Source: Cucumis sativus (Eukaryota > Streptophyta > Magnoliopsida > Cucurbitales > Cucurbitaceae). Taken from it: 64,000 nucleotides of DNA. Below, one piece after another: positions 11,301-58,012 of the stretch. The notes under the pieces are model-generated. The model searched no databases. It was not told where the DNA came from and worked only from the letters and a program-made list of their open reading frames with translations. Every line of letters begins with the position of its first letter. Within the stretch, counting starts at the first letter, position 1. The position numbers and the translations under genes are program-made. Location of the stretch: contig NC_026655.2 of assembly GCF_000004075.3 (NCBI RefSeq), positions 26,707,489-26,771,488 of the forward strand, written 5' to 3'.

Positions 11301-14300
11301 CCGCATACACACATCACAAGATAAAGAGGAGACATCAATTTTAGAGAAGAGATGGAAAAATAAATACTTCATATATTTAAAGTTTGGGTGACCCAACTAG
11401 AAATGCCACAACATACAATCTTGTTCAGAAATATTAAAATATAAAGACTAACTAGTCCTAGAGCTACTACTAGCGAAGGTATCATCGTCAAGGAGATAGA
11501 GTCTCCTGCTATGTCGGGCAGTGCAAACACCCTCATCGAGCTCAAGTCTTGAAAAGAAACAAAATCAGATAAGAAAGTAGCTTTGCAGTTCAGCTTACGA
11601 GTGTTATTGCTTATAGATAGCAAATTATAGGAAATCTTAGGCACATGTAACACATTCTGGAGGGATAACCCTTTAAAGGGAAAATTTTGCCCCTTCCCAG
11701 CAATTGGAGCTAAAGAACCATCAGCTATTTTGATCTTTTCATTACCAACACATAGAATATAAGAAACAAAATTCTGAGAAGAACCTGTCAAATGATCTAT
11801 AACACCCGAGTCCAGGATCCAGGGATTCTTCCAATCGACACTGATAAGATTAAGGGACTAAGGCATACTTAACTGAGTAAAAGCTCCTAAAGTGGAGGGT
11901 GGACTGGGACCGTTCTGGTTTACAATAGGGCCAGATGGTTGAGAGGTTCCAGTAGACTCACTCATACAAGCACACCCTGAGTTATGTTTATCATTTGAGG
12001 AACGTTTCTTACCTCTTGGAGGACGACCATGAAGTTTCCAACACTAATCCTTAGTGGGCCACTATTTCTTGCAATGCTCACAGATAGAGATCGGTTTCCC
12101 GCTCTTCTTCTCACTATCATGGGTTGAGGATCTAGCATTGAAGGCAGCAGAGTTAGTAGCAAGAGTAGTCAGAATACTCCCGACATTCGTATGGTTTTCT
12201 TCAAAATGGACTTCACAACCCACTTCTATTGAGAAAAGTGATCTCTGGCCAAGTATACAGCCACAAACAATGTCAAACTTGGAATTGAAACTGGCAAGGA
12301 AGTCATATTGTATGCCATCATTCGGAGTTTCTGATGTTGTCTCTCTGCACATGACCATCTCTTGCTAGAGTAGAGAGAGTATACACGTAGGAGGTTAAAT
12401 CCATAGTTCCTCTCTTGCAATTATGGACTTGTTTCCTCAGTGTATACAGACGAGAGGCAGTTCGTAAACCTAGGGCGGCGGCGGCGGCGTGTGGATGTGC
12501 GGCTGACCAAAAAGGTATGTGGTTGGACTTGGGAAAACAGATGAGAGTAAGTCGGCTGAACGGCGAAGGAATTGGACGACGCACATGAGCGAACAGCTAA
12601 GGCTCATGCAATTGGTTTCCTTCACTAGGCTACGCGGCTAACTTCAAGGGTGGACCCATTGTGATCCTCGACGTCTTCTGAAGCTGGTGGAGCAGCTTTT
12701 CCACGGCAGTGACTGTGGCATCAACGATAGCGGCAGTAGCAGCAATCTTGTCTGTCTCTATTTGGGTTTCATCTATCGTGTCTAGGGTTTCGTCTTTACC
12801 CCGCTCTAATACCATGTTAAAAGTGGTAAAGAAAATAAACACTGAGTTACAAGAAAACCCGAGTACCAAGAGAAAAACCACGATCTACTTATTAATTTCT
12901 CTTATTAACACAAGATACAAAGGAAAAAATAAATAGACAATAAGCTTATGATAAAAAAAAAGAAAGGAAATTAGGGTAAATCTTTCTTTAGGCCAAGCTC
13001 ATTGATTCTAACAAAAAGAAATACAGTTTGTTTGTATTATGATAATAAAATTACTAATACATATTTTTCTGATTGCATTCCACTCATTGAGATTATTTAA
13101 CTCTCCAATAATTCCTAGAAAATTATTGGCTCAAATACTTGAAGTTTAGTCCTTCATAATGTAAAAGTTGACATAGAACTCTAATTTCATTCAATGTATG
13201 AAAATATATGAATACAATTTTGTAGTTGTTTCACATTTCTTTTTTTTTTTTAAACGGAAACAAGCCTCTTTATTAATGATAATGAGAATAAAACTCAAAG
13301 TACAACAGCATTATACTAAGGGCAAAAAGAACTAAGGAAAAATACAAGCTAAAACTTAAACAAAGACTATACTCGGGCAACATAAATATGGTGGAAATCT
13401 AAAAACAAACCTGAACAGAAAATAACAAGCTAATCAAAGCCACTCAAAGACAATACATCAATAGAAAGCTAAATACCAAGCAAAATTTAAACTCTCTCAG
13501 AATTAGTCACTCAAATCTAAAATTTTACACACCCAAATCTTCAAGATGAAAGGACAGATAAATCTAAGAAGATGCAACCAGCTGCTTCAAAACTGTCTTG
13601 CCAATTCAATCCAGTGCCCAGAGGAACTCGAGGAAGTCTACCAGACCACAAAATCTTGCCAGCACTGCCTTCAACACATTACTCTAGTTGTCAAAGAGAA
13701 ATCTGCTTTAGGAATGTCAGACTCTCAAAATACCTTCATCCCACCTTGTAAGAATGCCCTTGAAACGCTTTAAAGCTTACAGCAAAAGTCCAGCCAACAT
13801 CTTTTGAGCTCTAGATGCTTAGAAGCTGTCTCTTCTAGATTCCAGAATTAGTACAATGTCCTGATTAATTTCTTTAGTAATCTTTTAATATCAGCCACCT
13901 TAATTTTTGTCCAAGTCCTCGCGTAATTCAAAAGCTAATCTTCATTTTTCAACCCTGAAGGATATCCACTGAATGACCTGTTTTCCTTTGGATTAGGCTA
14001 AGGAGATTTCACAGGCCTCCAATATGGAATGCAATTTTTGAGGTATGTTTTTCTTTTCCAGTGGAGTAAAGGGGAAGCTCTCCTTAATGGAACGTAATTG
14101 AACCTCTTTAGTTCGGAATAAATACCTAAAGCCTTGTTCATATCGTCCAGCATTTCATCTGTATTTCCTATATCCTCGTCGCCGTCTTCTCTTTCCAGTT
14201 CTTCACTGCTTACACTTGCCAATGACTCTTCATCAATGTCTTTCAGATCTTTATGAGAAGTTGTATGAAAAGTGCAATGTATTACTCGCACATTTCGTTT

Positions 14301-22290: not shown

Positions 22291-24038
22291 TTATCGAATT
22301 GGTTTTTAATTTCAAATTAAAATACATAAATTTTTAATTAGTCCTAAATTTTTTTATTATTTGTATTTTATGTAATTAATTTAGTAAATGACAGGATGAT
22401 TTGAGATTCATCCACAATTTCTTATTGAACAATGTTCTCACATGAAATCAATCTTAAAATGAAAATTTTAGATAATAAACGAGAATTCAACTTATAAGTC
22501 AAATGTTGTGAGAATTTAATGAAAATGTTTGAATGATAATAAAAACAAATATAGTTTCTGATTTAATCAAATTCCCTTTGTTTAGTAATCAAAGTCTCAA
22601 ATTTAGAAACAAAGCAAAAACTATAAAATAAAAAATTGATAAACTAAATATTTTTTTATTATTAAAAATAATTATCAAATCACAAATTCACCTAAAAGCT
22701 TAAGTTGATACGGGAAACAATTTAACCCAACACCATCTTAAATCACCAATTGATTCAAAATTTCAAGCTAATGGATGAAGACAAATTTAATACCACATCT
22801 AACAATAACATTAGTTCGTGAAACTATACAATTGTTCACCGTCAATACCATAAAACTAAAAAAACTCAAGCTGAGCTAAGGTAGCCATTCAAAATAAAAA
22901 CCACAAGTTTCTCGAAATTTAGAGATTTATAGCAAAATCAAAATAAAAAAACTTATCTCTAACTTTGATATTAATCTCAAAATTCATTGAGGGAAGAAAA
23001 ACGAAATTTCCCCCTACAAAAAATACTTTCAAGAATTTGTTATTGATTTTTCATTACTATAGTCTATAGTACTGTCCTAAAATTTTAAAGTTTATATTTC
23101 CAAACAATACTTTTCTTTACAAATACATTATCGAGCATAGATTTAAACGTAGGATTAGGATTATTAAGTGGTGGTAAAACACTATGGTTATGCTTTTATT
23201 GATAAGTGACCATCGTCGTTATTCTTATATTAGTGAACTAGTTATACCTTTGAACGTTGTATTGATTTAAACTATAAATCAATAATTACATTAATTTAAA
23301 TAATAAATTACCAGGGGTGTAAATTTAAATTTTTGTAAACTTTATAAATGGTATAAAAACTCACTAATATTTTAATTTAAATATATGCTAATTATATTTT
23401 ATTATAATAATTGTGATATGGAAATCAAACTTTCAATTTCTACAGCAAAAGGTCGTATCAATTAACAACTGATAACATGACATAAGGGGTGAGACACAAA
23501 TGGACTAGTTAGTTTGAGGATAGGTTTACGGGATGGGAGATAGCAATCAAGTGTGATACATGTTAGAGGGGTATGTCTACCTCCATAGTTAGGCAGACTG
23601 TTAATTTAAATGGACATAATACGTTAGCATTAAACTCGTGGATATCTATTATCACTTACTTCAACAAAAAGAACGATCGAGGTGTCAGCACGATGTATGC
23701 TGTATTGCACGAAAACTTCGAGTAAGCTCACTTTAGCGAATGAATTAGGACGCAACCATTGGGTGACGTGGAGATTCTAAACTTTGGTAGAGAGAGAGGA
23801 AAAGGAAAAGGAAAAGGAAAACGAGCGAAAATTTATAAATTTCAAAAGCGACCAAGAAAAACGCAACCCTGCCTGACCTGAAGCCGTTCTTCTTCAAAGT
23901 TCCCCTCTTTTTTCTCTTCAAATCTTTCAATTCTCCACCATCAAATTCCGTCAATTTACCCAAATTTCTCAATCACAATCCCAAAATCCTCCACCCACTT
24001 CCATGAATTTGACCATCACAGTCACAAACTGAATTCAG
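22291..24038. other. BPM upstream region and leader
   Basis: AT-rich DNA with no gene. The last 280 bases (about 23760-24038) become richer in C and are probably the 5' UTR of the MATH-BTB gene. An AGGAAA microsatellite-like run lies near 23797-23820. Confidence 0.5.
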
Positions 24039-27000
24039 ATGGCTGACACCAATTCCAATACCCCCACCGCCACCGCGCCGGAGAAAAGCCCCTCCGCCTC
24101 CCCGACGAGCTCAAGGTCGGTGACTCACACTGTCAATGGCTCTCATAAGTTTGTGATCCAGGGTTACTCTTTGGCGAAAGGAATGGGACCCGGCAAACAC
24201 ATTGCTAGCGATGATTTTACCGTCGGAGGGTATCAATGGGCCGTTTACTTTTATCCAGATGGGAAAAATGTTGAGGATAATTCGACTTATGTTTCTATAT
24301 TCATTGCACTGGCTAGCGATGGTACCGATGTGAGGGCGTTGTTTGAACTCACACTTGTCGATCAGAGCGGTAAAGGGAAGCATAAGGTTCATAGCCATTT
24401 TGAGCGGTCACTCGAGAGTGGTCCGTATACTTTGAAGTATCGCGGCAGTATGTGGTATGTTTTTTATTTTATTTACTGTGATTTTTATTGATTAGGTGAT
24501 CATTTATTGGATAGATTGCTGTTGTAGATTTAGAACGTTTGAATTAGTGCATCTATGACTTATGGTAGTCCTTTGGTCTTGAGTCGGGATTTGGGTTCTT
24601 AATTGGTGTTTTATGTATATCTATAATCGTGCAAGATTGTTTCTCCTTTCGTGTTCTATGTTATACGTATTTGTTGATTGTTGTAGTAGATTTAACTAAG
24701 TTTAAACTTTAAGCTTCTAGGTTGATTAATGACTGAACGTGGTATTAAGATAGGAGTTCGTGTGTGATCCTCAATAACCACTTGTTAGGCCTTGTACAAA
24801 TTTCCAACAAGTGGAGGAGAACGCTCAAGTATTGATAAAATGAAATTTATTGTAGTCCTTATAACTCCAGCCTTTGGGTTCATTGGGAATTCAACACGTG
24901 ATGACCAGCCATCTTATTTTTTAGTTTATTACTGTCTACTCCTTTACCATTACAATTTTACTTCCCCTTTTTAACTCTTTCGAAAAGAAAACTTCGATAG
25001 TATGGTTCTATGACAAGTCTCAGCATAATGGCCGTGATAAGAAGTAGAATTACTTTGGGTTTTGTAACATGTAAATGTTGCAGCACAAGTGAATGGTCTC
25101 CTTCCCTGTGCAATATAACAAAACCAATTATCAAGGCTCCACTATTAATTAGATATGTGCGTGTAGTGTATATATATGTTGAGAGAAACGATTTCATTGA
25201 TAAATGAAATGTGGGGTAAAAACTGAACCACCCAAAAGTGAATTACAAAAGACTGTCCAATGGGAGACTAAATAAGAAAGGGTATAATGTTGTTTGCATT
25301 TTTTGTTGAAATGGTAGAGTTTGATTGATCAAAGTTGGATAACTCTAGTATCCATTCAATGTAATATGGAGGTACCGATGGCTGAATGAGCCAATTGGGT
25401 ACTTCAAAATGAAGTGATATACAAATGTATCTTTATAAAAACTAAATTTTCATTAAGAAAAAAGGGTACACAAAGGATACAGAAAACACAACCTACAAGA
25501 AATCAATTAAGGGATATATGGTTGATGGTACACAACTTGTTAGTAGATTAATTGATCACTTTGAAAGGAGTTATACATCACATCACGGACAATAGATCAA
25601 ATAAAGATCTCTGGGGTGTATACTGACGTACTATGACCTACAAACAACATGCGTTATGAAGCACAATGCATATTTTAAGTTTGCTCAATTTAAGTTATTA
25701 GGGCTAAGTCTAACGGGTGACTGACGATGATGCTACCAAGTTACCAACATTGTCATCAGTTTTTCTTTAAGCCATTTTATTGTTTGACATCAACATTAGT
25801 TTGAAAGATATTTATCTTCTAAATTGGTCGTTAAATATTATATTATCCATATTGAAAACTATTAAATATTAATTTGATCTTTATTATTGTATTAGAACAC
25901 AATCAAATTAGAAATTTAGAATAGTATATGAGGATTATAATACAATATCAATATTTTAGCTCTGAATTTTTATTTACTTCACTTAACCAAGCATATATTG
26001 TATTGATCATTGATATCTCCGTGCAATGTTGTTTTTGATTTAATTCTCCTGTGGTCATATCTTATAAATTCTTATTAAGATCTCACATTTATAAGATGTT
26101 TCAACGAGCTCTTTAGCCTAGTTGACCTTATTATACCATTTTGTTCCTGGGGAACAAAATAATTTGTATATTTCACGCATTGCTTGTAGTTTGGTTTGTG
26201 AAAAAAATTAGAAGTACTTGTGTTAAGTGCAATTTGTTCAAACTTTCATTGGTTTACTTCATAATATGGGTATTGGAAAGCCAGCTCTCTACTTCTTGAA
26301 CTTTTGGCAAGAGATGTTTGGGCTTCTTTGTGGCTGGTTACCATTAGTGAGGTTAGTTGCTCTCTCTCTATGCCATCCATTTGCCGCTAGTGGAGTATTA
26401 TTGGGTGTCTCATTGAAGTTCAGTGGAGCGTTCACCCCATGGATTGACCAAGTGGTCAAAGGGGTAAATTGTAGATAGGGATTGCCACCTCATCAAGGTC
26501 TTTTATATGGTTCAAGACTTGTCTCTTGATACCAAATGTCATAGGGAAAAATAAATGTCATAGGAGATTGGTGATAGTACCTATAATTTGGCCCAAACAC
26601 ACATTTATTTATAATAAAACAAAAGATCGTGTTGTGCTTCTTAATTGAAAGGAATAATAGGCAATACCCATAAAAATTCTTGCTAAATAGCTTGGGAAAA
26701 ATAATTTAGACTTTTTTTAGAAGTATTTTGCTTAATTGAGACCTTATTCTATTCAAGACATTAGTTTGAATTGGAATCCCTTCATGTTCTCTATTTAACT
26801 TGGTTTGTTTCTTTTATTTTCAGCTATTTTATCTTGTATTTTGAGCACTAGACTCTTTTTATTTATCAATGAAATTTCTATTTTCCTTTTCGAAAAAAAA
26901 TTGAAAAGAGGAATTCCTCACCTTGGGTTCAGGCTGTGATGCTGGAAGTGTAAAAAATAGGAAGTTTGCTTGAGAATCAAAGTGGCTTTGGATGTCTTTT

Positions 27001-30000
27001 AACGTAGACAAGATGTTGTTTAGGTTGAAGGAGGACTCTCTTCAAAGAAAAGATCGTGTGCCTCGTTCCCTATTTGTGAAGATGCGGGAATTGCGTTCCA
27101 ACCAAATAATCCATAAAATTTCCCCAATGGATTTCAACCAAAGGACTTTCTTTTCTTTCTTGATGCGATGCACGTTGAATAAATGAGATAGATTGCCCTT
27201 AGCTTAAAATTGGAAAGAAATATGCCACCCAAATGGTAGAAAGGTGGTCTTGTACCTTGAATTTGAAATAAGCTGCACCTTATTCATCTAACCATCAACA
27301 TCCGATAATCTGTCTAAAGTTCTAACTGATATTTTGAGCTCGTGGAATAAGCACCAGCCTTGTTAAGTCAGGCATCTTGGTATCAAAATAGACCATGCTA
27401 TTGCCTAAGCCAAGCCTAAGCCAAAACAGACAAAGCCTGGTTATGATAAATGAGAATGGTGTTTGGCCTCTTAAGTACCTTTGGAGGTAATCCTAAATCC
27501 TGCAAGTCTTGGAGTCAGTTGTTGGGAAAGTGTTGTTGAACCTTCTAAATGGAATGTTAACTCTATGTTTAGAGGCGTGAATTCTTTAGCTACTCATCTA
27601 CTTCATCTTTTTTTAAAGAAAATTATTAACCAAACTCTTCATTGATTTAATGTATGTTCAAAGGTAAAGGCTCTTGATGGGAGGAAAAAAACAAGAAAAT
27701 CAAACTGGAGAAAGCCAGTTACAAATAATCAGAAAATAATTTAGAAAGAGCACCAATTGAGAAGCTTTGGTATGTAGTGGGTCTTTTGAAAGAGAACTGA
27801 CAAGAGCTCAGAGAATTTTCTTCTTGCGGTTATGGTTTACAAAGTAAAGCTCAACTTTGTGGATAAATAAGCTTAACTTTGGGAGGTTACTGACAGAATG
27901 TCAATGGATGAATATTTTTTAAGCGATTTGTGGAAAATTTTGGTTGCAAATGAATCAAAGTATTTTGAAGAGCCGAGGATGTTTTCAATTTGTGGGGATG
28001 CCATTAATCTTTTTGTTATATGTGTGTGTATTACACCAGCTAGACCTGCTAGAGTAATCGTATAACTTATTTGACTTTGAGTTCGTTGATGGTTTAGCTC
28101 CCCTCTTTTTTTTTTGGGGACTTTTCATACTTTAATAAATAGTTTGTTCAGTTATTATAAGAACTTCGTTGTGGTTTTTAAGGCTTGAACCATTCCAGAA
28201 TATTCATTCTTCTTCTCCTGTCACTGGTCTTCACATATCTCTTGAAGATTTGACTTTTCTTTGATTCGTCAATGTAGGGGATACAAGCGTTTTCTTAGAC
28301 GATCTACCCTTGAAAACTCTGACTACCTCAAGGATGATTGCTTGCAAATAAATTGTACTGTTGGAGTTGTGGTTTCGTCAATAGAGCGTCCTCATTCACA
28401 GACAATTTCTATTCCCGAGTCTAATATTGGAGCTCATTTTGGTGCGCTGCTGGAAAATTTAGAAGGTTCGGATGTCACTTTTGATGTTGATGGAGAAAAA
28501 TTTCAAGCTCACAGGTTGATATTGGCTGCTAGATCACCTATGTTTCGGTCTGAATTTTTGCATATGTTAGAGGAAAGTAAGGAGGAGATTTTTGTTAAAG
28601 ATCTAGAGCCTAACGTTTTCAAGGTATAAACATGGTTACTCTGTCTTATTTGTGTTTTCTCTTCTGTGTTCTGGTTTCTTTGCTTCGGCTTTAGTTTTGT
28701 CCAATTAACCACTGCATCATGTTTAGGGGTTTATTCTGAAGTTTTTTTAATTTTCATCAGGCTTTGCTGTACTTTATTTACACCGATTCCATCGCAGAGG
28801 ACGTGGTTGAATCAAGTTCAAGTTCATCTTCTGATTCTGATGTGGGTGACCACTTTATGGCAAAATTGTTAGCAGCAGCGGACAAATACGGTTTGGAGAG
28901 ATTGAGACTGATGTGTGAATCTCATCTTTGTAAAAACCTTTCCGTACGGTCCGTTGCACAAGTACTAAGTTTTGCAGAGGAGCACCATGCCACTGAATTG
29001 AAAGCAGTTTGCCTGAGATTTGCTGCAATGAACCTTGGAGGTACGTTGCTATTCAATTTAGTCAGTATGATCTTTGATAAAAATGTTAAACGTAGAAATA
29101 CCATATTTTTCTCAAGCGTAAATATAACTTGTTGATTTACAAAAGAGCCACCCCTGATAGAGTTAATTACAAAGGATATGTAATTGCAAGTGCAGTCCAG
29201 TTTGTGTTTATTTGGGGCAAATAATGACTTGTGAAATCTTAGAGCCCAAAGTTTAAGGAGTTAATAAAGCATAGAATTGATGTATTTTAGTCATGGGGCT
29301 ACAAACTCCTTGAACCTAACAAGGAGTTGGTTAACAACTCCAATTCCAACTCTTTGGGTCAAACACCTCTAACCTTCTAACCTTTCAATTGTGTTTAACA
29401 GGTTCTTAAATATTTAATTTTGTAATTGTGTGTTTAATGGATCCTTTAATAAATTTAATATTTTTAAAAATTAATTGGACTAAATTTTAATGTAACCCAG
29501 CATCTTTTATTATATTCTCTTTTTTGTTTCTATTATTTATTTATTTTAGTTCAAAGAAGGTCAGGAGCAGGATTTTAACGTAGGACCTTTAAGAGAAATT
29601 AATAGCTTGGTTGCTTTGGTCGACATATCCTCCCTGTTTTTTCCTAATGATTAAAAGTTCTAGGATTTCTCTTCGTATCTTCATAATTGATTCTCCCAGG
29701 CGATTTTCAATGCTCTCATTTTTCTGGGCTCTAGTCAATTGTTATGCATTTCTCTCAAGTGAGTCATGAAATATCCATATCATCCAGATCCTCTAGTTCC
29801 AAACTCAGGCTGAGTTTTGGCTTTTGGGATGACTTTTAAAGTACTTTGACTCAAAAGCAGATTTTCTATAAGCACTTCTCAAAAAAGTATTTGCAGGTCG
29901 TTTATCTTAAAAGTTCTTTTAGTGTCATTAGAATTTAAATTTTACTAATTAACTAAAAACATATTATTTTTTAACATCTTTGGGGGCCTAGGTAAGCTTA

Positions 30001-30991
30001 CGCTCACTTTTATTGGTTTTAACAACTTTTAAGTGTTGTGGAAACTTGTAGTATAATCCTAGGCATGTGGCCACCGTAAACCAAACTCATTCCCTCCACC
30101 TATGACCCTTTGGGGTGCTCATTTGGTTATTATTGTCGGTTGTTATTATAGTATGTGAGTCATAATAGTCTGTGTTTGAAGTTCAAACTATTTTAGTTTG
30201 GTTATAATAATTAGTGTTTGGGGTGCAAATTATTTTAGTATAGGTAAACATTAGTAAATAGTAAACATCCTTTCAGAGAAGGAAAGAAAGAATGAGTAGA
30301 AAATAGTAATCACTTAACATACAAGGATTTGAAGAGAAGGAAAGAAAGAATGAGTAGAAAATAGTAATCACTTAACATACAAGGATTTGAAAGGGCGATG
30401 ATGTAGTTAATTGTAAATTATAATAATTAGAAACACCAAATATACAATTATATTTGGAGTCCCAAACATAGAGTGATAATAATAGACCACTGCATCGACT
30501 GTCAGTTGTTGGCCCAAACACCCCCCACATTCAATTCTTAATAACACTCAATTCATAGTTTCTTTTGGCGGTGTACTGAAAATAGGAAATTCTTGTGTAA
30601 TTACAACACTCGAAAGTTCTCTTGTAGCTGTTTTAGCAGTCCTCCAAGGGAGAGTTCTTTCTTCCACCTCGTCCTTGGATTACCTAAAATTTGTTACCCT
30701 TTGAAAAGTCATCTCAAACTCATCTTTAAGAGCACTCAACAGTCATCAATGTTGTTTTTTCATTCTTTCATATGGTTTTGTAAATTGGACCATTCCTTTG
30801 CAGCTGTGATGCAATCAAAAGGTTTTGAGCATTTGAAGGAAAACAATCCCTCTCTCCAATCCGAGCTCCTGAAGATACTTGCACAAAACTGTGGGGATGT
30901 TTGTAGCAACGGATCGAAATCCCGAAGTGTGTGGGCTCAACTTTCCGATGGTGGTGACTCAAATGGAAGGAGAGTCAGACAAAGAACCTGA
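24039..30991 (+). CDS. BPM5/6-like: MATH-BTB protein of the BPM5/BPM6 type, CUL3 ligase substrate adaptor
   Basis: BPM proteins bind CUL3 through the BTB domain and recruit substrates through the MATH domain, so that transcription factors and the PP2C phosphatases of abscisic acid signalling are ubiquitinated in the nucleus. Exons 24039-24454, 28278-28623, 28761-29040 and 30804-30991 join with GT-AG junctions to 1230 nt, 409 residues. The known family is close to 400-410. MATH covers about residues 28-160 ([20 protein letters not shown], then [20 protein letters not shown]). BTB starts near residue 201 ([20 protein letters not shown]) and is followed by the BACK-like helical tail. The ending [20 protein letters not shown] is the BPM5/6 signature. 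A run of seven serines ([10 protein letters not shown]) sits in the BTB part just after exon 3 begins. The gene looks intact. Confidence 0.95.
24455..28277 (+). other. BPM intron 1 (3.8 kb)
   Basis: A long first intron after the MATH exon. It contains no gene. Around 26820-26908 the plus strand shows a 3'-UTR-like stretch (TTTATTTATCAATGAAATTTC) ending in an A-run, typical of a LINE or similar retroposon tail. Other ORFs here (26227-26478, 26992-27186) show no family motif. Confidence 0.5.
29041..30803 (+). other. BPM intron 3 (1.8 kb)
   Basis: Non-coding apart from the splice sites. It contains the exact 58-bp tandem duplication at 30275-30390. Nothing else is recognised. Confidence 0.7.
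30275..30390. repeat. Exact 58-bp tandem duplication
   Basis: Bases 30275-30332 and 30333-30390 appear identical by eye (each begins AGAGAAGGAAAGAAAG and ends AAGGATTTGA). Perfect identity points to a recent duplication. Confidence 0.92.
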
Positions 30992-32021
30992 TAACTCAAA
31001 ACCATGATTGTTCCTTATGTAAATGCAAATATGTTTTTCAAGTAACTTGAAAAGAAAAAAAAAAAAAAAAACCCGAAAAGAATAGCTTCATTTCGTTATG
31101 TTTGTCGAGGAACGTACTCAATAGCAGCAAAATTAGATTTTTCATCTTGTAGTTTGATGTTTGCACAACATGGGATTTTAGATGTACTCATTTGCTGAGG
31201 AAGCTTTCATTGAAAACCTGAGGGCTAAAAGCAAAAGAAGGAAGGTTATAAGCTCTTTGTCTTATTGATTATTTGTTAATTTTTGTATTTTAACTTTTCT
31301 ACATCTTTATTTTGTTTTCTGTTTAGAATATACTTTTCAATGTTAGCTATTTTTAAAATTGGTTTCTTATAGTGCAACTGTTTCCACACACAGTTTTTCT
31401 TTTGAAATTTGATTAAAAATTTAATGCTTCTACCTCTGTTTTTTAAAATTAAGAAAAATGTTTAATTTTCAAAATCAAATTGAGTTTAGTTTTGTCACCT
31501 TATTCAAAATCTTAAACTAAAAATGACATTTGAAAATTACATTGTCATCTTATATTCGAAATTGAAACTCTAATTTTTACCCATCAATAGAAATTAATGT
31601 AAGAGTTTTTAAAAGTTTAGAACTAACATAATTAAAATAATTATGGTGGCAATTATAAATTTATCAAAAGAAAATAAAGAAATTATTTTAAATACCAAAA
31701 CTTCTAAGAAAATTTAAAAATAAAACAAAATACTAATGATATATTTAAATAACTGTCTATCAAAATATTTAAACAAAAGAAGAATGATATTTAAATAACT
31801 GTCTATCAAAAATAAACGAAACTTGCTCCCCAAGGATTTTGAGGAACGGAATCTTCGTTCTTCAAACTACCAAATCCCTTTTTATATATTCAAGTTCCGA
31901 GTAACGATGCCAAAAATCAGGACCCATACACATTTATACAAACTCCCAATTACCTCAAATCCCCGTCGCTTTATTCGTTGCAACTTCATTTCATTTGATT
32001 TTTCTGTTTTTAGACGAATCC
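30992..32021. other. BPM 3' UTR and spacer to the zinc-ribbon gene
   Basis: Contains the probable BPM 3' UTR, an A-run of about 20 at 31050-31071, and AT-rich spacer. A short duplicated phrase (GATATTTAAATAACTGTCTATCAAAA type) lies near 31738-31812. No other gene is seen. Confidence 0.5.
31881..31890 (+). promoter_or_regulatory. Possible TATA box of the zinc-ribbon microprotein gene
   Basis: TTTATATATT lies about 130 bases upstream of the ATG at 32022. A start 30 bases downstream would give a leader of about 100 bases. Motif and position only. Confidence 0.4.
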
Positions 32022-33199
32022 ATGGACTGGTGTTCTCACTGTCTCGAGGTTTGTACAATCCAAATCGATGGCAATTTCAGGTACCTTTAACAGTTACTTC
32101 TCTTTCTTCTTCTTCTTCTTCTTCTTTTCATTCGATTGTTATGAATTTCAAAGTTACTTTTAGTTGAATTTCTGAATTGGGATATAATTGTTGTTGGAAT
32201 CTCAATGTTGAGTCAATTTGTTTTTCTGTGATTTTACGTTTCATTTGCTTTTAGAATTTTTTCGTGATTAGACTGATTGAAGTTTTTTTTTTTTTTTTTT
32301 TTTTTGTTGAAAATTTGGTTACCAAAGTCTAAAATATTATATTCTTAATCCTTAAATTTGATTTCAATTTACTCGTTGTGTTTCAATTTGATCTACGTTG
32401 CTCAAGTTTAATTTTGATCTGTAATTTTCTCTAAATGCTACTGACTTAGTGTTAACATAGAATTATAATTAATTACATTCTATCAACTATTTTAGTTGAC
32501 TTAAATGGTTGTTGGGTGAATGAAAAATAAAATCACAAGAGCTTATACTATTGCAAAAATGTTTGGAAGCTATTAGCAAATGGTATCAAAGTCATTCTCC
32601 CATCTTATCACCTTGGACAGAATCCTCAACAATCCAAAGAAGTGGTGAGCCTCAGAAAACTAATAATCATTGTGTGATGTGGTCGAGCTCCATCATATAG
32701 GCAATGTGCTCCAATAAAAGGAGTTAACATAGATGAGAGTAGGAAAATGATTAAATAAAATAAACTAACATATGTATTTAGGTGATAAGTACTATATAAT
32801 AAACCCACAAGAGTGTATATCTTTGTCAAGGGTTAGGGTTATCTCTATAAATGTCTTCACCTTTTAACTTAGACTATGCTCGTCTCGACAAATATTATAG
32901 AGGGGGTTTGATCACATATTTTCAAGTAGCATCGATCCCCTTTTTTCCTTTTAAGTTGTCTTTCTTATAAAAGTATATAAACAAAAAGTTGATATTTGAT
33001 ATTGTTTTTTAATGAACAATTCGCAAATCTTGATTGCAGATGTTGCTCAACATGTGGAAAAGTGCTTGCACAAAGTTCTACCGCCAAATCACCGAACTTA
33101 AAGCTCATAAAAAAAAAATTTAAAAGAAACTTCATTTCTCATCAGAAGAAAATTAGGAAAGAACTTCTTAAATTAGCACAACTCTCTAATACGACTTAG
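32022..33199 (+). CDS. 72-residue TFIIB/BRF1-type zinc-ribbon microprotein
   Basis: Two exons, 32022-32080 and 33040-33199, join across a 959-base GT-AG intron and leave 72 residues. The N-terminus reads MDWCSHC, then a short spacer with IDGNFR, then CCSTCGKVLA. This is a C-x2-C...C-x2-C zinc ribbon with the WCxxC start and the CxxCGKVL end of the N-terminal ribbon of BRF1/TFIIB. In BRF1 that ribbon helps recruit RNA polymerase III. Here the cyclin-fold repeats that normally follow are absent. Instead there is a basic, helix-prone tail (KLIKKKFKRNF, then QKKIRKELLKLAQL) and a stop. No further BRF1-like exon was found before the next gene. The intron falls inside the ribbon, which supports a real spliced gene over a chance ORF. 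It may act as a small competitor or partner of polymerase III or II factors, or it may be a decayed BRF1 fragment. Expression is unknown. Confidence 0.65.
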
Positions 33200-35814
33200 A
33201 TTTTCATTTCCCAATTCAACCACATTTCCAAATAATTATCTTTATTCATTTGTTTATTTTTTCTTATCGTCATCCTTTAGCAATTCATTCTCGGAAGGAA
33301 AATGGAAAGTAGTATGTGAATGTGTACTCAGATGGCCACAATTAGGCTTTATGAAGAAGGTAAATAAATAAATATTAATTGAAGTTCAAAGCTCTATTTT
33401 CTCAGATTTCATGGATTAATCTTTAAAAGAGGTGAAAACAATTATGATATATGTAATGAAGCAATCATCTATTAGTAGGATACTTTTTTTATGTTCAATG
33501 CAAGCAAAATTTTAAGAAACAAAGTGCACAATATCAAAGTATTGTGAAGATATGTATGTGGTTGATTGTCTATATCAAAAATTGAGAGGGGGAAAGAAAT
33601 GTGAAATAAGTGATTAAATTAAAAAATGTTTAATGGAGCTCGAAAAAGTTCACTAAATATTATCATTTAGAGAAAGTATATCAAGGAATCATCAAGTGTG
33701 TATAGGGTTTATTTTTTAATTTGTGGGTTGATTTTTTTTTCTTTTGCTATTTTTGCAAAACTAAAAACTTTGAGCTATTGGCCTAATATTGATAACTTAT
33801 TTTGCTGATTTGGGAACAAATCCAACTTTTTAAAAGTTAAAAGACTAAAGTAAAGTATAGTGTTTTGAAACTTAGAAACCAATGAAAAGTTGTTATTAAA
33901 TTTAGTGACAAAAGTTGTATTTAATTTGTATTTTTTTTAAAATGTCAATAAATCTTAACATACAAACCATAACATTGACGCTCAAAATTGTTACTAAAAT
34001 AAACCTAAAATGTATGCTCATAAATTCCTTCAAGAGTCAAATCAACATCAAATTATTGGGGTGATTAAGATTTCTTAAAAGAAAGGAAGAAAAAAGGGGT
34101 TTGTGTCATGAAGAGAACCATTAAATGTGAATAAAAAATGATTGTCATGGTGACATTAAATGATGAAATAGATATTACATTATTGACAAATGGATTAGGT
34201 AACAAGCCAAATCCCTTATCATATTGTCTATCCCTTTAATTCATTTATTCTACTTTGACTTCCTACATACTCTCACTTCTATTATGGCCCATTTGTTTAG
34301 TTTTAGGGTTGAATTGCAAAAATTACCACTAAAATATATGTAATTATATTACTAAACTATCAAAATTAAAAGTAAGCTATTAAATTTATTCAAAATTTAA
34401 AATTAGGTAATCAAACAGCTTCCACAATTGTATGGTTTATATAAGTTTGATGGTTCAATTTTTAAGACTCGAGGATCTAATTTTAATATTTTTAGAAGTT
34501 TAGGCGTCCAATTATAAAAACTATAGTAAAGAATAAAAAAATGATGAATATCAAATATAACTAATTGGAGACTTTTAAATAGTGTTTACGGTAGCAAGAG
34601 ATATGTCTATTATATTTGTAGTAAGAGATGATTTTTTTCTCCTCTCCATTGAGAGCCGGGAAGGAGTCCATCTATATGCTCGAAAGCATAATCGCAAACT
34701 TAAGAGTAGTGAGAAGCAATTAGAATGAGAACCTCATCTCCCACTAAACTCTACTGAATCAAAGTTACTGATCACAACCACAAAACAATAGTCAAAACAA
34801 ATCATAAACCATATGTCATCCATCTTCAGTGGGACGGAATGTTGAACCCCTACCCAAAAGCAACACTATCTAGTGAACTTCATAAAGCAAAGCCCTTATT
34901 AATGACTAAACGCTCGAAACAACTAGAATAAATTAGACTTCTTACTTATTAGATAGACATTAACGACTTAGGTCTATCTTCTACTCTAGACCTAAGATAT
35001 AAATTGAAAATTTGAGACATCATGTGCCACACGTACAATATTAATTAAATCTACACAGTTCTTCTCATTATGAGATAATACTCTATCGAAAATCTCTTCT
35101 CCCATACTTAAAACTGAAGCTAATTGAGATCTTTTACTTTTAGCTGAGACTCATTTCCTATTTGTCTCTAAGACACTTGTTAAAGAATTTAGTGGTCTAG
35201 AGTAGACACCACAAAAATGTAGTAATTGAAAGCATGAATAAGAGAACATACAATAATAGAATCTAACTCAAAAATAAAATTGTTATATTTTGAAACTTAA
35301 AACAAAATTGAAATGAATTAAATAAAAACTAACAACAGATTGAAAAGATATTTTCTCCTAAAAATTTATCTACTAATGGAATCTGAAAAAGTCAACAAAA
35401 CGTATTGACCTCGTCGGCGACTAACCTCAGGCGGCGGTGAGATAAAAAAAGAAAGAAAAGAAGATAAGAACATACGGCGGCGTCTCTATCGGGAACAGAG
35501 TGGCAATTTCGGTTAATAAGGGGAAGTGGAAGGGTATTTTTGTTGATGTAGAGAGAGAAAGTCGTCTCTCTCATCTCCGCCTGCAGCTGAGTTTTTTTCT
35601 GGTGGGTCATATCTATTTCTAAGCTCTCTTTGTCTTCTTCTTCATCTTCCCAAAATCAACAAACCCACGCAAATTCCAAATTTAGGGATTGGGATTTGGA
35701 ATATTAAAAATTTCCCAATCCAATTATTACTTTTCCAAGTAATTTCTGTTTGAATGTTGATTACTATACGATCCTCCGTCAGGTGGATTTCCGCTTCTTT
35801 TTTGATTTAAGTTG
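33200..35814. other. Spacer between the zinc-ribbon gene and the SnRK1 beta gene
   Basis: AT-rich and without a gene. At about 34315-34535 there is a phrase pattern (GAATTGCAAAAATTACC at one end, CAATTTTTAAGACTCGAGG and similar further on) faintly like the fold-back element at 16291. The last 180 bases (about 35630-35814) are the probable 5' UTR of the next gene. Confidence 0.5.
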
Positions 35815-38800
35815 ATGGGTAATGCCAATGGTAGGGAGCAGAGTACTCCCGGAGCACCACCTGCCGGAGGAAGACCTGACGTCGATGAGCAAAGTCCGGC
35901 AATTACTTCGGAAACCAGTGAAACTAGTAACGTTGTTTCTTCAGATTCGATGGGAAATACTCCTCCTCAAAGCCCTGGGAAGTTCCGATCCCCGATCTTG
36001 TTCGCTCCCCAGGTCAATATTTCGTTCTTTTCCCGCTAATCTTTATCTCTTGTGAACTGGGTTTGTGTCAATTTATGTTCTTTTTGCTTTTCATGCTGAT
36101 GTTTTTTGGTTGTTCGTGGGATTTGATTCATTCAATGATACGTCGTTTTGTTATTGGGTTTTATTGTTTGGTTGAGGTTGGGTTTCCCGGGGAATTTCTT
36201 TACTAAGATCGCTGTATTGCAATGGTTGTAAATGGGGAAAGTTCCAGCCAAGATCCACTTAATTGACTACTTGAACTAATATTGACTTCCAGCAATTTTA
36301 AATAATGTTAATTGTTAATTATTATTATTTATTTTTACTTTTGATCATTTTCTTAATGCTGTGCTCTTTGGATATGAATGGCTGAAATGTGGAGATGAAT
36401 GGCTGAAATGTCTGTTGTTGGATTTGACTTCTCTGATCAACTACAGTTTGTATATGAAAAGCTGGGATTTCTCTCTTAATCTCGATCCCCTTTGAACTTT
36501 TGATTAATCTATTAGAGTTGTTTGGTTTTTAGAATCAAGTATGTTGTGGAGCTGAGTGTTTCTTCTTTATCGGTTGAAGGACTGATGGCGTACTCATCGA
36601 TGTAATGGGTGATGAGTAAAAACTTGTAGATCCGGATTTGATCTTACTTAGCAAATATTTTGGCTAGATTGTAAGGTCGAATTTGACTTTCTTGCTGTTT
36701 GAGATGAACCCAATGTGAATTTGTATGATGTTTAGCCTTGGTTATGCCTTTTGAAATGATGGTGGGCATGTGTTACAAGACTTGCAGATTCCAGTGGCTC
36801 CCTTGCAAGGAGGTAATGGTCCAACCCATTACAGTGGAGCCTGGCAGAACGAATTCGAGGGAGCTGTAGATAGTCCTCCAGAGCAAGGAGTCCCGACAAT
36901 CATCACATGGAGCTTTGGAGGCAATAATGTTGCCGTTGAGGGGTCTTGGGATAACTGGGCTTCCAGGTTATTTTTTATCCTTCTCCAGGCTGCTATTGTC
37001 AATCCGTGATTTGTTCAAGCCTCATGCTTCACGACATTAGATCTACTGCATTTTGCATAAATAATGAAATATTATGCTACATTGGTTCTGCAGGAAAACC
37101 CTGCAGAGGACTGGCAAAGATTTTTCGCTACTTATGGTCCTTCCATCTGGAGTATATCATTATAAGTTCATCGTCGATGGTCAACGAAGATATATTCCAG
37201 ATCTTCCTTTCATAGCTGATGAGATGGGCAATGTCTTTAATCTTCTCAATGTTTCTGTAAGTGTGATTCTTCCCTCCATCTGCATTACCATCCAATCAGC
37301 ATGAACTTGATCTTGACTCATTGTTTGTATAAAAAATTTATTCGGCTATGTGTAAAAATAGAAACTATCACATAGGTGCAAAAATACTTGCTTGATTCCA
37401 TGTCGACATATCACTAGAAGGATAAATGCCTGAAGAGATTCCATAGTAGTTCACGGCTTCTCAATTTTATAACTACAACCTTAATAATCCATGATGAATT
37501 GTTCAAAAAAGAACCGATCAAAGATTGTTTAAGCTCATTCATTTTCACACTATTGGTATTACTCTCGTATGTTTGATGTAGAGAGATCATAGTTTTAAAC
37601 CTGGAAAAGGACTAAAGAAAAGAATGAGGATAGCTCTCCACTCCCCAAGTCAGTAAAGTTAGGTAGAAACTCAGAAAGCCAAAACAGCCTTAATGTCTTA
37701 CGTTATGGCAATATAAATTCTAAAATAAAAGAGGAAAAACTGTGGCAGTGTCACCACTAAAAGAGAAAAAGAGAGAACAAAGGAGAGAAACAGCCGCATG
37801 TCTTACAAACCGGTTGGCTGGTCTGAATGATGCCAAAATCTCCTATAACAAATCCTTTTCTTTTCCTTTTTGAACACTTCTGAACACCAACGTAATTAAC
37901 ATAAGATTTTTCTGATAAGGAACGTGATTAAAACAAGTTCTTTGTTTATTTTATTAAAAAAAAGGTTCTTTGTTTATTTAATATCAGAAACGTGATTTAC
38001 TCAAGTGCTTGAGAGTTTTGTCTTCATCCTCTATGTAGCAACTGTAGACATTCAGAAATTATTTCCTTTATCCTGTCATGCTTTTTGAATGTGTTACTTG
38101 TAAATAACTACTCTTGCACCTGTTTGATTCTTTTGGGGAGCTTAGTTTTATCATTTTTGGAGGAAAAGAACAAATTTATATCATCAGGTTGATCAGAAAA
38201 TTATAGGAGAATTGGGAAAGGTGCCTACACAATAGATTATCCTGGCTCTCTTGTTCTTTCTTTTCAATTTGTGCAATGAGACACGTTCATCATGTTTCAC
38301 AATTATTTCATCTTCTTGCTTGCCATGAGCGTGTTAAGATACTACCTTCACGATTTATATAATAATAATGAGATAAGAAGGTTTAAGTAGTAGGTATTAC
38401 AGCATGAGCATTCCCACCGATTCAAGATGGGGATGCTCCCAAGTCTTATACTCGCAACTTAACAAAACAACCAATAACCTGAAATACAACAAAAATTGCT
38501 ACCTAATCACAAACCCCAACTTATTAGCGGGTGAATTTCCTTTGCCCCTTCTAACATAAACATTGGGTATTTGGAGGGGTCCCATAAAGTGTACATTTTG
38601 TCCATTGATTGTTCTATTGAAGTATATTCAAAAGATACAAGGAGAATATCAAAATATGTTGAGTAAAATAGTTATTCATGTGCTCAACCCTAATGAGCAT
38701 TTGAGCTATTAAGGGATATATCTATATATATATATAGAACATGAGCACACATACACATAACACACGTGCGCATAATAGGATAGGAGGCTGTAGTCTTCTC

Positions 38801-41938: not shown

Positions 41939-43410
<1,472 letters not shown>

Positions 43411-48230: not shown

Positions 48231-48625
48231 GTAATTTTCCTCTAAACGATAGTGTATTACAGTCTAAAATGATCTACTATCACATTTAGGTCATGATACT
48301 TGTAATTTTTTAACAATAGAAAAATAATAATTTTCTTTTAAACGATCGTGTACTACAATCTAAACGAATGATCTATTATCACATTTAGGTCATGATACTT
48401 GTAATTTTTTAATGATGGAGAAAGAATAATCTTATTCTAAACGATCGTGTATTACCATCTAAACGAATTATCTACTATCAAATTTAGGTCATGATACTTG
48501 TAATTTTTTAACGACGAGGAAATAATAATATTTTTCTAAACAATTGTGTGCTATCGTCTAAACGAATGATCTACCATCACATTTAGGTCATAATACATGA
48601 TCGTATAATTATTTTTAACGATGGA
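48231..48625. repeat. Minisatellite, four copies of a 99-bp unit
   Basis: The landmark TTTAGGTCATGATACTTGTA or its variant recurs with GGTCAT at 48289, 48388, 48487 and 48586, exactly 99 bases apart each time. Each unit also holds TCTAAACGATCGTGT or a variant. Copies differ by point changes but keep the period without indels. Confidence 0.9.
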
Positions 48626-50769: not shown

Positions 50770-51279
50770 TGGGGGGGGGGGGGGGTGTTTAACCTTTTAT
50801 CGTTGATGCTATCTTCACCCTTACTTTTGTGTGTGTGTTTAATATATAATGAATGAAATCATCACCAGATATTTGTCGATTTTAAGGAAATATATTGATT
50901 TAAACTTAGACCCTATTTTCTAACCATTTGATTTCTTAAATTTGCGCTTGTTTCACACCAAAACTTTAGAATGGTTTTCATCATTCCTAAACAAACATGT
51001 GAATTCTTAGGCAATTTCCAACAGCAGGAACAAGTTTCCAAAATCTACTTTTCTTAGTTTTAGAAAATGGGCTTGATTTTGGAAACAAATTATGTGACAA
51101 GGAAACTCTAATGTACAAGTAGTTCTTTATAAGCTTAATCTCCAAAAACCGAACGGTTATCTAACAGGTTAGATCATTATGTGCTTTCCAAAAGTTGTAT
51201 TGGGATGAATTGTTGTGGACAAATGTTTGATTTTGTCTTCAAAATTGATTTTCTTAACCAATGGGCATTTCATTGCAGA
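49021..51279 (+). other. Probable leader exon and leader intron of the RING-H2 gene
   Basis: A CT-rich block at about 49060-49167 looks like a 5' UTR exon. It is followed by a donor-like GTACGT at 49168. TTGCAG at 51274-51279 is a good acceptor before the exon with the ATG. If both are used the leader intron is about 2.1 kb. It contains an A-run (49674-49691) and the composite TA/T/G tract at 50737-50785. The exon limits are inferred and were not confirmed. Confidence 0.5.
50737..50785. repeat. Composite simple repeat (TA)12-T10-G15
   Basis: Twelve TA units (50737-50760) run directly into ten T and then fifteen G. A G15 run is very unusual in this AT-rich DNA. Confidence 0.95.
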
Positions 51280-51339
51280 ATTCATACATTTAGGAATAAG
51301 CCTGGGTTTTTTTTTTCAACTGTAGCAATTGAGAGAAGG

Positions 51340-52272
51340 ATGTCATCTTTTGGTGAAGACACCCATTGGTGCCATCAATGCCACCATTCATTCTGGCTTG
51401 ATGGAGAAGACATAGTTTGCCCTCATTGTTATGGTGGTTTCGTCGAAGAACTAAACGATGAACATGATGAAACAGTTCAAAATGACTTTAATCCAGGCAT
51501 AGAAGAAGATCTTTCAACCCAGGTGCCTCCAATTTTCGAAGCTATGTTTGCATTAATGGGACGAAGAAGTCCTTATCCAAGATTTGGTCTTCTCGAAGCT
51601 GTTGATACTTTCACCAGAGAGAGAATGGCTGGAAGAAATCCTAACTTTGACGTCAGGAGAAGATCTGGTTCTGTTCCAGGGCAGAATTTGGATTTTTTCA
51701 ACTCTTTTTGGTCATTCCATGATCACATGTCGGGTTCGACCTTTGCTAATGTCACTCCAGAAGGTAGATCAAGTCAGCATACGGGACTGGAAGAATTAGC
51801 CGCACAACTTTCCTTAAATGAACAAAGAGAACCAGTCCCAACTCCTGCTTCTCACTCTTGTATAGAAGCAATGCCCACAATCAAGATTAACCAAATGCAC
51901 CTCGGCACCGACTCTCATTGTCCAGTCTGTAAAGAAAAATTTGAGCTCGAATCTGAAGCCAAAGCTTTGCCATGTAATCATATCTATCACAATGATTGCA
52001 TTCTTCCTTGGCTGGTCCAACATAATACTTGCCCGGTTTGTCGACTCGAGCTGCCTCAGCAGGAAAGTGGACACAGTTGGGGAGGGAGTGGTGACAACAA
52101 CAGTGAAGACCTAAATGAGAGAGAGATTACTCAACGAAACCTGAGAAGGAGGCATCCGATCCCAGATTTCTTTGCTCCTCGTCGAATTGTCACTCGTTTC
52201 AGCAGTGGGATTCATATAAATGGCCTATCTTCAGATCGAGATCACGATAACGAGATGGGTTACCCTGAATGA
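51340..52272 (+). CDS. RING-H2 E3 ubiquitin ligase with N-terminal zinc ribbon (RHC1A/RNF126-like)
   Basis: An E3 ligase that would pass ubiquitin from an E2 to a substrate. The coding part is a single exon of 310 residues if translation begins at MSSFGEDTHWC (51340). The reading frame is open further upstream to 51181, but TTGCAG at 51274-51279 looks like a splice acceptor, so the upstream part is likely intronic. The zinc ribbon uses C11-x2-C14 and C27-x2-C30 (WCHQC, then CPHCYGGFVEEL). The RING-H2 domain spans about 194-236: CPVC, then CNHIYHNDC, then CPVC, the C3H2C3 spacing. Between them is a low-complexity linker, and a basic tail (RRRHPIPDFFAPRR) follows. This layout matches plant RHC1A/RHC2A and animal RNF126/BCA2. 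The substrate cannot be inferred. Confidence 0.93.
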   Translation: MSSFGEDTHWCHQCHHSFWLDGEDIVCPHCYGGFVEELNDEHDETVQNDFNPGIEEDLSTQVPPIFEAMFALMGRRSPYPRFGLLEAVDTFTRERMAGRNPNFDVRRRSGSVPGQNLDFFNSFWSFHDHMSGSTFANVTPEGRSSQHTGLEELAAQLSLNEQREPVPTPASHSCIEAMPTIKINQMHLGTDSHCPVCKEKFELESEAKALPCNHIYHNDCILPWLVQHNTCPVCRLELPQQESGHSWGGSGDNNSEDLNEREITQRNLRRRHPIPDFFAPRRIVTRFSSGIHINGLSSDRDHDNEMGYPE

Positions 52273-54912: not shown

Positions 54913-56595
54913 TGTCACGCCCCCACACGGAACATGTTTCTTCCTAGCATTTTCAAACGCAAATGCGACTTGGGCAACTCTAATGTCTTTGACAAGGAGC
55001 CAGAACGCCCAGTCTTAAACTTAAACTTTTATCGAAACTTAAATGCTTTGCTAGAATGCCTCGTATTTAAACTTAAGCTTCTACCTAAGCAAATTTGCTA
55101 ACCCAACACTCCTAAATGGAATGCCAGAATGCTTGAATCTTAACCTTAAACTTGAGCTTTAACTTCTTAAAAAAAATATGCTTGGCAATAAGTAATAGTA
55201 ACACCTTAAACTTTGGAATAACTTATCTATTTGTTCATTCCTTACAAACTTAATATAATTTACAAGACATATTTTTTAAAACTTAAAGTTGTTAAACTTA
55301 AACTCCAACGCCTTGTCCAACTTTTAATGCCAACACAACACAACCGCTTACCTTAACAATGCGACCTCCTTGCTTTGCTTACCTAGGGAAAGAAAACTTA
55401 AAACGTAAAAACGTTATGAGGTGAGTGACATTTTAGGAAAACCTTTGAGAAATACAAGTACATACGTAAATTCATTTTACAAGATCAAGTTCACAACGCT
55501 TCGTCATGCGTTAAAAGAACTATAATACCACATTAGCCCCTACTTATTCATTTCGCCAGGACATTGAACCACTCTCACACATAGACTATTGTGACGGTTT
55601 GTATCATCATCAGCATCCTTTAAAGATGTTTATGTTCAATTCCTAGTTGTGCAGGCAGTCAACTCAAATGTGAACCTTTCAACGCATTCGGCCACCTTCT
55701 TATCGCCATGCAGACCTCTCAAGGCATAGTTGCCTCGATCCTTATGTGCACATAATAGCTAGCTCATGATAGGAACAAAACTGATGGTCTATTTGCATAA
55801 AAGCATTTCATACAAGCATGATCAGATGAAATACTTTAACTTGGAAACATTTCAGCTTAGAAACATACTTTCAAAGAGTTATGCTTTTCTTTATAAACAT
55901 AAACAAAAATGACTTCGAAAGAAAAACTTTAGAAATCTCCGTTCGTTCTCTTTTAGGAGAGTCACTCACAAAAGCTATATGTTTTCTCCTAACCCTTTTC
56001 TTAACCCTTCTTAAAGCTTCTTCTTCTTGTCCTCGCTTGGTGCTCTTTTTGGCAGAACTTCAACACTTAAAATTTCATTATCCTTCCTATGAACCCCTAA
56101 TGCCTATTTATATAATCTTAAACTAGATTAGTCATCTTTAAAAACTCATCTTAACTTACCAACTACTAGTTAGTGTTTTACACGTGTAGGTTTAGTATCT
56201 TCTCTAAACATGCTTAATTTAAACTCAACATGTAAGAAGTTGACTAATCTAATTTAATGAACAATCCTTTCCTTGCCTAGCTCTTTCTCACTTAGATCAA
56301 AACACATTACTAAATTTCTCTTTCTCCGTTATCTTAACTTAGCATAATGCCTGCATACTTTCCTTCATTGTGTCGCCTTAATTACTAAAACATATGCTTT
56401 TTTCTCGCCTTACTAGAATATATACATGCCCCCTTTCTCGTCTTACTAGAACATATGCTTCTTTCCCAAAATGCGTCGTCTTATACTTAGTGATCACTTT
56501 AACTCCCTGTACTTTAGAACACGTAGTTTTTATACTTGGTAATTTTTACAGCTCATTTCTTCATATCCTCTCTTCACCAAGACACGGGTTTCACA
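54913..56595. mobile_element. Solo LTR (1683 bp) with AGAGT target duplication
   Basis: The segment starts TGTCACGCCCCCAC and ends GGGTTTCACA, so it has TG and CA ends. AGAGT lies directly on both sides (54908-54912 and 56596-56600). There is no gag or pol coding and no second LTR inside, so it is best read as a solo LTR. The TGTCACGCCCC start and long length resemble plant Ty3/gypsy LTRs. That family call is an inference. Confidence 0.75.
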
Positions 56596-56600
56596 AGAGT

Positions 56601-57616
56601 GGAGTCATTGAAAACATTTGAAGAAGTTTAAAAATAACAAACTCAACTCCACACAATGGATTGAGTTGGTAGTTTTTACAAACTAGACTAAACTCGCGCT
56701 GGTGAGCCAAACACATTGATAAATAAACTCTTAGTAAATTGAATTTTGAGTTTTTAATAATTGAGCTCTTTTTAATTCGTACAATTCATCTATATCACTA
56801 TCATATATTGTGTTATATTGAGCTCTAGCCATAACCGTCAACCAAATCTTGCAGCCAGTCAACTTCAGTGACCACGTTTAACAACCCCACTACCACACGA
56901 CCAACTTCGACAACCATTACTTTAAATAATTACTTCATAGTACTTTATAATTATCCATTATATAGAAATTTAACATTAATAAAAACATTTTTAGTACCTA
57001 CCAAACTTGTATATAAAAACACTTTTGAAAGACATATGAGTGTTCTATTTTAAACTATTTTTATCAAAAAGTATTTAAATAAAAACCACTTTTTAAAACA
57101 ATCTTTTATATATAAATTCAAACAAACCATAAATCTCCCGAACTATTTTCAAAAATAGCAAATCACGGTACAAAATATAGCAAAATTCATCAAACTATTT
57201 GATGCATTTTGCTATATAGTTTCATTTTCTATGTTATTTATAACCATTTTTCTTTCAAATATAACAAAATGAACCAAAATACTTATAAAATGTAGCAAAA
57301 TAGTGTCATCTATGTACGATGAACTACAATACACAAAAATAGATTACAATACTAATTATCTTATCTATCATAAATAATTGTGATATTTTATTATTTTTGT
57401 AAATATTTTTAAAAATTTTATCATTTAGAATAAGGAAAATTGTAAAAAAATAGAATATTTTGTCATAATTTTGTCAATATTTTAAATTTTTAAAAAAACC
57501 CCAAATCTGCATTAAAAAAAATTTAATAATTATTTAGAATAATTGGATTTTATGCTATGATTTTATATATAGTTTGTAGAATAAAAGAATATATTAAAAT
57601 CGGGGTATCTCTCCCT
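56601..57616. other. Spacer upstream of the UBA gene
   Basis: AT-rich and without a gene. Bases 57150-57430 begin with phrases such as AAAATAGCAAAT and ATATAGCAAAATTCATCAAA and end with TTATTATTTTTGTAAATATTT, like an imperfect fold-back AT-rich MITE. No target duplication was established. Confidence 0.5.
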
Positions 57617-57628
57617 CTATATATATAC
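57617..57628 (+). promoter_or_regulatory. TATA box of the UBA-domain gene
   Basis: CTATATATATAC lies just upstream of a CT-rich leader that starts at about 57650-57700. Position and motif fit a plant core promoter. Confidence 0.55.
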
Positions 57629-57977: not shown

Positions 57978-58012
57978 CTTCTTCTTCTTCTTCTTCTTCT
58001 TCTTCTTCTTCT
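57978..58012. repeat. (CTT)11 microsatellite
   Basis: An uninterrupted CTT run of 35 bases in the leader region of the UBA gene. Confidence 0.95.

Follow-up and report, generated by a model that had tools for sequence, protein, structure and literature searches.

A ribbon-only gene in two Cucumis genomes, very likely a truncated relative of BRF1, with a possible role as a Pol III microProtein

The question raised by this locus is whether two short exons, which together encode a zinc ribbon resembling the N-terminus of the RNA polymerase III (Pol III) factor BRF1, make up a working small gene or the remains of a larger one. The exons lie in a 64,000-nucleotide stretch of Cucumis sativus DNA, the whole of which is called the window here, and are flanked by a MATH-BTB gene on one side and an AMPK/SnRK1 beta-type gene on the other. 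The locus comprises the following features:

32022..32080, + strand: exon 1, 59 bases, with ATG at 32022, encoding MDWCSHCLEVCTIQIDGNF plus two bases of an R codon; based on translation, on rank 2 among BRF1-profile matches to 3553 open reading frames (ORFs), and on its match to exon 1 of the genome's BRF1.
32081..33039, + strand: intron, 959 bases, GT-AG, phase 2, interrupting the ribbon at the codon where BRF1 has its intron 1.
33040..33199, + strand: exon 2, 160 bases, with the ribbon half CCSTCGKVL, a basic tail, and the stop codon TAG; based on translation, on rank 1 among the same 3553 ORFs, and on alignment to the melon orthologue (P0001).
33068..33196, + strand: tail, residues 30-72, defined by charge count, helix-prone, and not alignable to BRF1.

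With the donor CAG/GTACCT and the acceptor TTGATTGCAG/A (slashes mark the junctions), the exons join in phase 2 into 72 residues with no internal stop and a mass of 8215 Da. The original prediction of two exons giving 72 residues, with an intron inside the ribbon and good splice sites at both ends, is borne out by translation across this canonical GT-AG junction. The ribbon takes up residues 1-29 and has its zinc-type cysteines at positions 4, 7, 22, and 25, and the tail holds 12 lysines or arginines (K/R) against one acidic residue. Neither a broken frame nor broken splice sites, by which a pseudogene would be recognised, are seen, the frame and GT-AG sites being whole in the window and the protein whole in melon. 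When the intron was compared with its own genome in a DNA search that skips very common words, matches elsewhere were confined to query bases 408-521, which include a T run. Directly 5' of the start codon, at 32007-32013, lies an acceptor-like TTTTTAG, from which a 5' UTR intron is possible.

The identity of the ribbon was assessed with a profile built from residues 1-34 of 15 plant BRF1s (14 of the 22 from the protein search and one assembled by hand), run over all six frames of the whole window, where 3553 stop-to-stop ORFs have 12 codons or more. Exon 2 ranked first (E 0.004) and exon 1 second (E 0.029), both on the same strand, followed by a match inside the BTB exon at E 0.18. The spliced 72-residue protein scored 30.4 bits and the melon orthologue 27.8 bits, while the best score among 20,000 shuffled versions of residues 1-31 was 16.4 bits; the ranks and shuffle scores together indicate that the ribbon is not due to chance. 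The N-terminus of the same genome's TFIIB-like gene reached 25.0 bits, a margin so small that the BRF1 profile by itself separates BRF1 from TFIIB weakly. Residues W3, C4, S5, C7, C22, C25, G26, K27, V28, and L29 are common to the window protein, the melon orthologue, and the genome's BRF1. Pfam PF08271 was not reported for the small protein, and since it was not reported for full-length melon BRF1 either, its absence is uninformative.

Descent from BRF1 is indicated by the structure of the two genes. In the source genome, of 226.6 Mb in 88 contigs, a full BRF1 gene lies on C1 near 24.78-24.79 Mb, on the minus strand, about 1.95 Mb from the small gene, and its 19 exons, joined by hand, give a 631-residue protein. 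The BRF1 ribbon is interrupted in phase 2 at the end of exon 1, at GF-CT/A-YCDMCGKVL, and the small gene is split at the same place and phase, at NF-AG/A-CCSTCGKVL. The shared intron thus has phase 2, interrupts the codon that lies two residues ahead of the third zinc cysteine, and occupies the same alignment column, with a length of 118 bases in BRF1 and 959 bases in the small gene. In the TFIIB-like gene on C4, the ribbon is encoded in a single unbroken reading frame. Because intron codon and phase are shared along with the ribbon, they point to common descent, and the small gene is very likely a truncated BRF1 relative. The BRF1-type zinc ribbon first proposed from the DNA is upheld by the profile ranks, the shuffles, and the shared intron position. 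It is highly probable that the gene was derived from the 5' end of BRF1 by duplication and loss of everything beyond the ribbon. A processed (retro-) copy of BRF1 was also considered and was ruled out by the presence of an intron at the BRF1 position.

The fate of the later BRF1 parts bears on another explanation, namely that the two exons, which match the first two of BRF1, belong at the head of a longer, complete BRF1-like gene whose later exons went unnoticed. Whole-genome searches with PF00382 for the two cyclin (TFIIB) repeats and with PF07741 for the BRF1 TBP-binding domain gave no match in the window, and when 23 BRF1 proteins were run against the window by tblastn, the best 40 rows contained no convincing exon beyond the ribbon, the best match away from the ribbon exon having E 0.062 and lying far off, at 60.8 kb. 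The tblastn test for further exons has little power, as even the ribbon exon scored no better than E 0.045 in it, which leaves a longer gene some room; against it, an in-frame stop closes exon 2, and the melon protein ends at the same alignment position. A longer gene is judged highly improbable. The absence of cyclin repeats noted at the outset holds within the window by PF00382, PF07741, and tblastn, and hidden downstream exons restoring a full BRF1, which had been named as one of the findings that would count against a stand-alone protein, were looked for and not found in the window. In a gapless comparison of the tail with 22 of the 23 BRF1s (one with a cut ribbon was dropped), the lowest uncorrected p values were 0.055 for the window and 0.16 for melon, both with Dillenia. 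The tail as a leftover BRF1 exon 2 was rejected, there being no significant gapless match to these BRF1s.

Counted over aligned residues, the ribbon shares 19 identities with Dillenia BRF1, 15 each with Punica and Solanum BRF1, and 13 with cucurbit BRF1, and this closer likeness to Dillenia than to the cucurbits hints at an old paralogue. In a tree of 19 rows (17 of the 23 BRF1s and the two small proteins) over 32 columns, the small proteins join Dillenia at support 68/73, and a joint clade with cucurbit BRF1 is unrejected (p-AU 0.287). A recent copy of cucurbit BRF1 is not favoured by these comparisons. When the DNA of window positions 31500-34500 was compared with the BRF1 region, exons 1 and 2 lay outside all of the best 20 matches. 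A search for a duplicated block shared with BRF1 returned one BPM exon and one SnRK1-beta exon matching elsewhere, none near C1:24.8 Mb.

A second BRF1-like locus, at C4:17609644-17611295, matches the C-terminal part of BRF1 only, at residues about 420-560 and in order, and 9.9 kb of this locus gave no ribbon or cyclin match at E 1 or better with three BRF1 queries. Its layout is similar to that of AtBRF4CTD, described as a C-terminal-only BRF relative (PMC7865254). Both are partial relatives of BRF1, as the small gene appears to be, but they keep the opposite end.

A conserved orthologue, proposed from the outset as a check, is present in Cucumis melo as a 71-aa 'hypothetical protein IC582_003221', identical in 53 of 70 aligned columns (76%) over residues 1-70 with one gap. 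It was the one relative among 17 candidates from a search of about 5.8 billion proteins, and a second search, with an alignment including the BRF1 N-terminus, again returned the melon protein alone among 73 candidates. These protein searches listed a copy neither from another cucurbit nor from the species of the window itself, although the same database contains the BRF1s of melon, Benincasa, and Cucurbita. In the two latter genera, the small protein either lacks annotation, is missing, or has diverged too far for a word-based search. The locus tags suggest that melon BRF1 (IC582_002953) and IC582_003221 lie in the same region. A putative BRF1-derived, ribbon-only gene is, on this evidence, common to two Cucumis genomes.

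Selection between window and melon was evaluated against a neutral K of about 0.09, which is our own arithmetic from an LTR rate of 4.5e-9 per site per year and a split of 10 million years, both as given in PMC6856369. The neutral simulation assumed an indel model and used the window sequence as a stand-in for the ancestor, and because melon is known as protein, the counts of non-synonymous changes are lower bounds. The two small proteins differ at 18 amino acids plus one codon gap, compared with 12.7 differences expected at K 0.09. At least 22 nucleotide changes fall in 170 non-synonymous sites (pN at least 0.129), as against at least one change in 175 such sites (0.006) for BRF1 residues 1-74. 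The first 90 residues of the genome's BRF1 match melon at 99%, and the whole protein differs at 33 of 631 positions in an ungapped comparison that is inflated near the C-terminus. These measures give no indication of constraint on the small protein as a whole, with divergence at or above neutral, and since divergence is close to neutral, the orthologue by itself is no proof of function.

This divergence suits the view that a second BRF1 gene was lost and that the locus is what survives of it in decay, namely its exons 1 and 2; the donor of exon 2 would have disappeared, translation would read on to a chance stop, the frame would have stayed open by luck in both species, and no protein that matters would be made. 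A tail that cannot be aligned to BRF1 and the lack of any protein from the window's own species in the searches agree with decay. What decay explains less readily is the state of the gene, with frame, start, and stop whole in both species and splice sites whole in the window. The neutral chance that a second copy keeps its frame and splice sites was 0.028-0.085 at K 0.09 and 0.008-0.147 across six settings. The four zinc cysteines are kept in melon, an outcome with a chance of 0.41-0.45 in the neutral simulation, and changes are fewer in the ribbon (3 of 29) than in the tail (15 of 42; Fisher p 0.025). Taken alone, the ribbon lies below the neutral expectation without reaching significance (p 0.11). 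Melon has a basic residue at each of the 12 basic tail positions, an outcome seen in 0.6-3% of neutral simulations over nine settings. The basic-residue test and the division into residues 1-37 and 38-72 were chosen after the alignment had been seen, and the selection tests overlap; combined, they tilt slightly toward a translated protein. We regard the remnant as a serious contender that falls somewhat short of an even chance, and consider that the small protein has some function, of whatever kind, with a chance a little better than even.

The tail has a character of its own. Residues 38-72 changed faster than neutral, their 82 sites carrying 18 changes or more (binomial 3e-4 for 0.09, 0.008 for 0.12), and the melon tail holds 14 K/R against one acidic residue. 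Over 33068-33196, the tail is seemingly faster than neutral while every basic position is basic. AlphaFold2 (AF2), applied to the melon orthologue with an alignment of 17 of the 22 BRF1s from the protein search, gave strands across the ribbon (block means 75, 84, and 82) and a helix at 35-70 (block means 50-60), with a mean pLDDT of 64.8 and a pTM of 0.36. The basic, helix-prone tail of the original prediction is in keeping with the charge count and with this weak model (pLDDT about 50-60 there). Compared with solved structures (Foldseek, VIA-align 2), the AF2 model had no significant match, and the assignment to a zinc-ribbon fold rests on sequence, not on the model.

These properties would also suit a working small protein with another job, in which the ribbon would be a zinc-stabilised fold and the tail would bind RNA, DNA, or ribosomes with no contact to Pol III. 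A tail that evolves fast and stays basic, with few acidic residues in either species, agrees with such a role, as do the Foldseek rows, 14 of 25 of which are ribosome entries and 4 of 25 RNA polymerase or TFIIB/TFS, none significant. It is countered by the ten BRF1 ribbon residues from W3 to L29 that the two species share with the genome's BRF1, and by the failure of non-polymerase structures to match significantly. We consider such a role improbable.

The reading we propose is that of a Pol III microProtein, and past the ribbon we infer every step of it. If expressed, the small gene would yield a protein of about 8.2 kDa with a BRF1-type zinc ribbon and a new basic, probably helical tail, which may serve nuclear entry or nucleic-acid contact. 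The free ribbon would occupy the Pol III dock where BRF1's own ribbon binds. Having no linker, cyclin repeats, or TBP-binding domain, it could hold the dock and not build TFIIIB, and it would block or tune Pol III initiation as a competitor, a trans-microProtein. Solved structures of initiation complexes place the Brf1 ribbon in contact with the dock of Pol III, where Bdp1 residues and/or C34 are required to keep it stable (PMC6066478). A free ribbon may for this reason bind weakly and may need the tail to hold it, and we grade the mechanism lower on that account: as a whole, from expression to dock binding and action as a trans-microProtein, it is put forward tentatively. Graded down on the same ground and unlikely, though conceivable, is a lineage-specific Pol III regulator, whose free ribbon would sit on the dock while the fast-evolving, always-basic tail holds on to nucleic acid or to a different surface of the polymerase, so that Cucumis would have a dominant control on the synthesis of tRNA and 5S rRNA. 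Overall, a Pol III microProtein function is possible, with roughly the same likelihood as a fragment in decay.

Among known systems, the small protein resembles BRF1 (TFIIIB 60/70/90 kDa subunit) in its N-terminal zinc ribbon, its M-x-W-C-S start, its CGKVL motif, and the codon and phase of intron 1; BRF1, however, is a protein of 631 residues that includes cyclin repeats and a domain for TBP binding, whereas the small protein consists of the ribbon followed by a basic tail. AtBRP6 (AT5G39230) is likewise a plant TFIIB-family protein cut to its N-terminal part, described as a zinc ribbon and linker without cyclin folds and of unknown function (PMC7865254). It differs in belonging to the TFIIB subfamily, to which BRP6 is assigned (PMC4036515), and not to BRF, a comparison made by description only. 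MicroProteins are characterised as 7-20 kDa single-domain relatives of larger proteins, for which duplication followed by the loss of domains is one possible origin (PMC6003976). The 72-aa protein shares with plant trans-microProteins its small size, single domain, and relation to a larger multi-domain protein, but it is common for those described there to have a protein-protein interaction domain and to sequester their targets as dimers (PMC6003976).

A microprotein made of a BRF1 or TFIIB ribbon was not found among the literature matches listed, most subscription journals being outside that scope. To our knowledge, no trans-microProtein derived from BRF1 has been reported earlier. The original remark of knowing no described microprotein of this kind stands in that none appeared among the papers listed, and is weakened by AtBRP6, a partial precedent for the architecture. 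If expressed, the small gene would let one ask, in a natural setting, whether a BRF1 ribbon on its own is able to control Pol III, and the range of plant microProteins would widen beyond dimerising transcription factors to include a core polymerase factor. Without expression, it would be a clear example of a gene fragment passing for a gene, which can happen because the divergence of two close species cannot settle the matter.

The surroundings of the small gene in the window include the following features, assigned with Pfam:

24033-31000, + strand: MATH and BTB/BACK exons, probably of one BPM gene.
36755-37009, + strand: AMPK/SnRK1 beta-type gene.
41939-42340, - strand: calmodulin-like EF hands.
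51139-52272, + strand: RING with zinc ribbon.
60181-62157, + strand: UBA protein.
11369-11857, - strand: retrotransposon-type Pol fragment (PF22936).

A tandem repeat with a 99-base unit, 3.7 copies, and 85% match occupies 48232-48596. The GC skew of the + strand is strong at 55000-58000, with values of -0.372 over 56001-58000 and -0.629 at 57700-57999, and the skewed stretch ends at a TCT repeat at 57974-58012.
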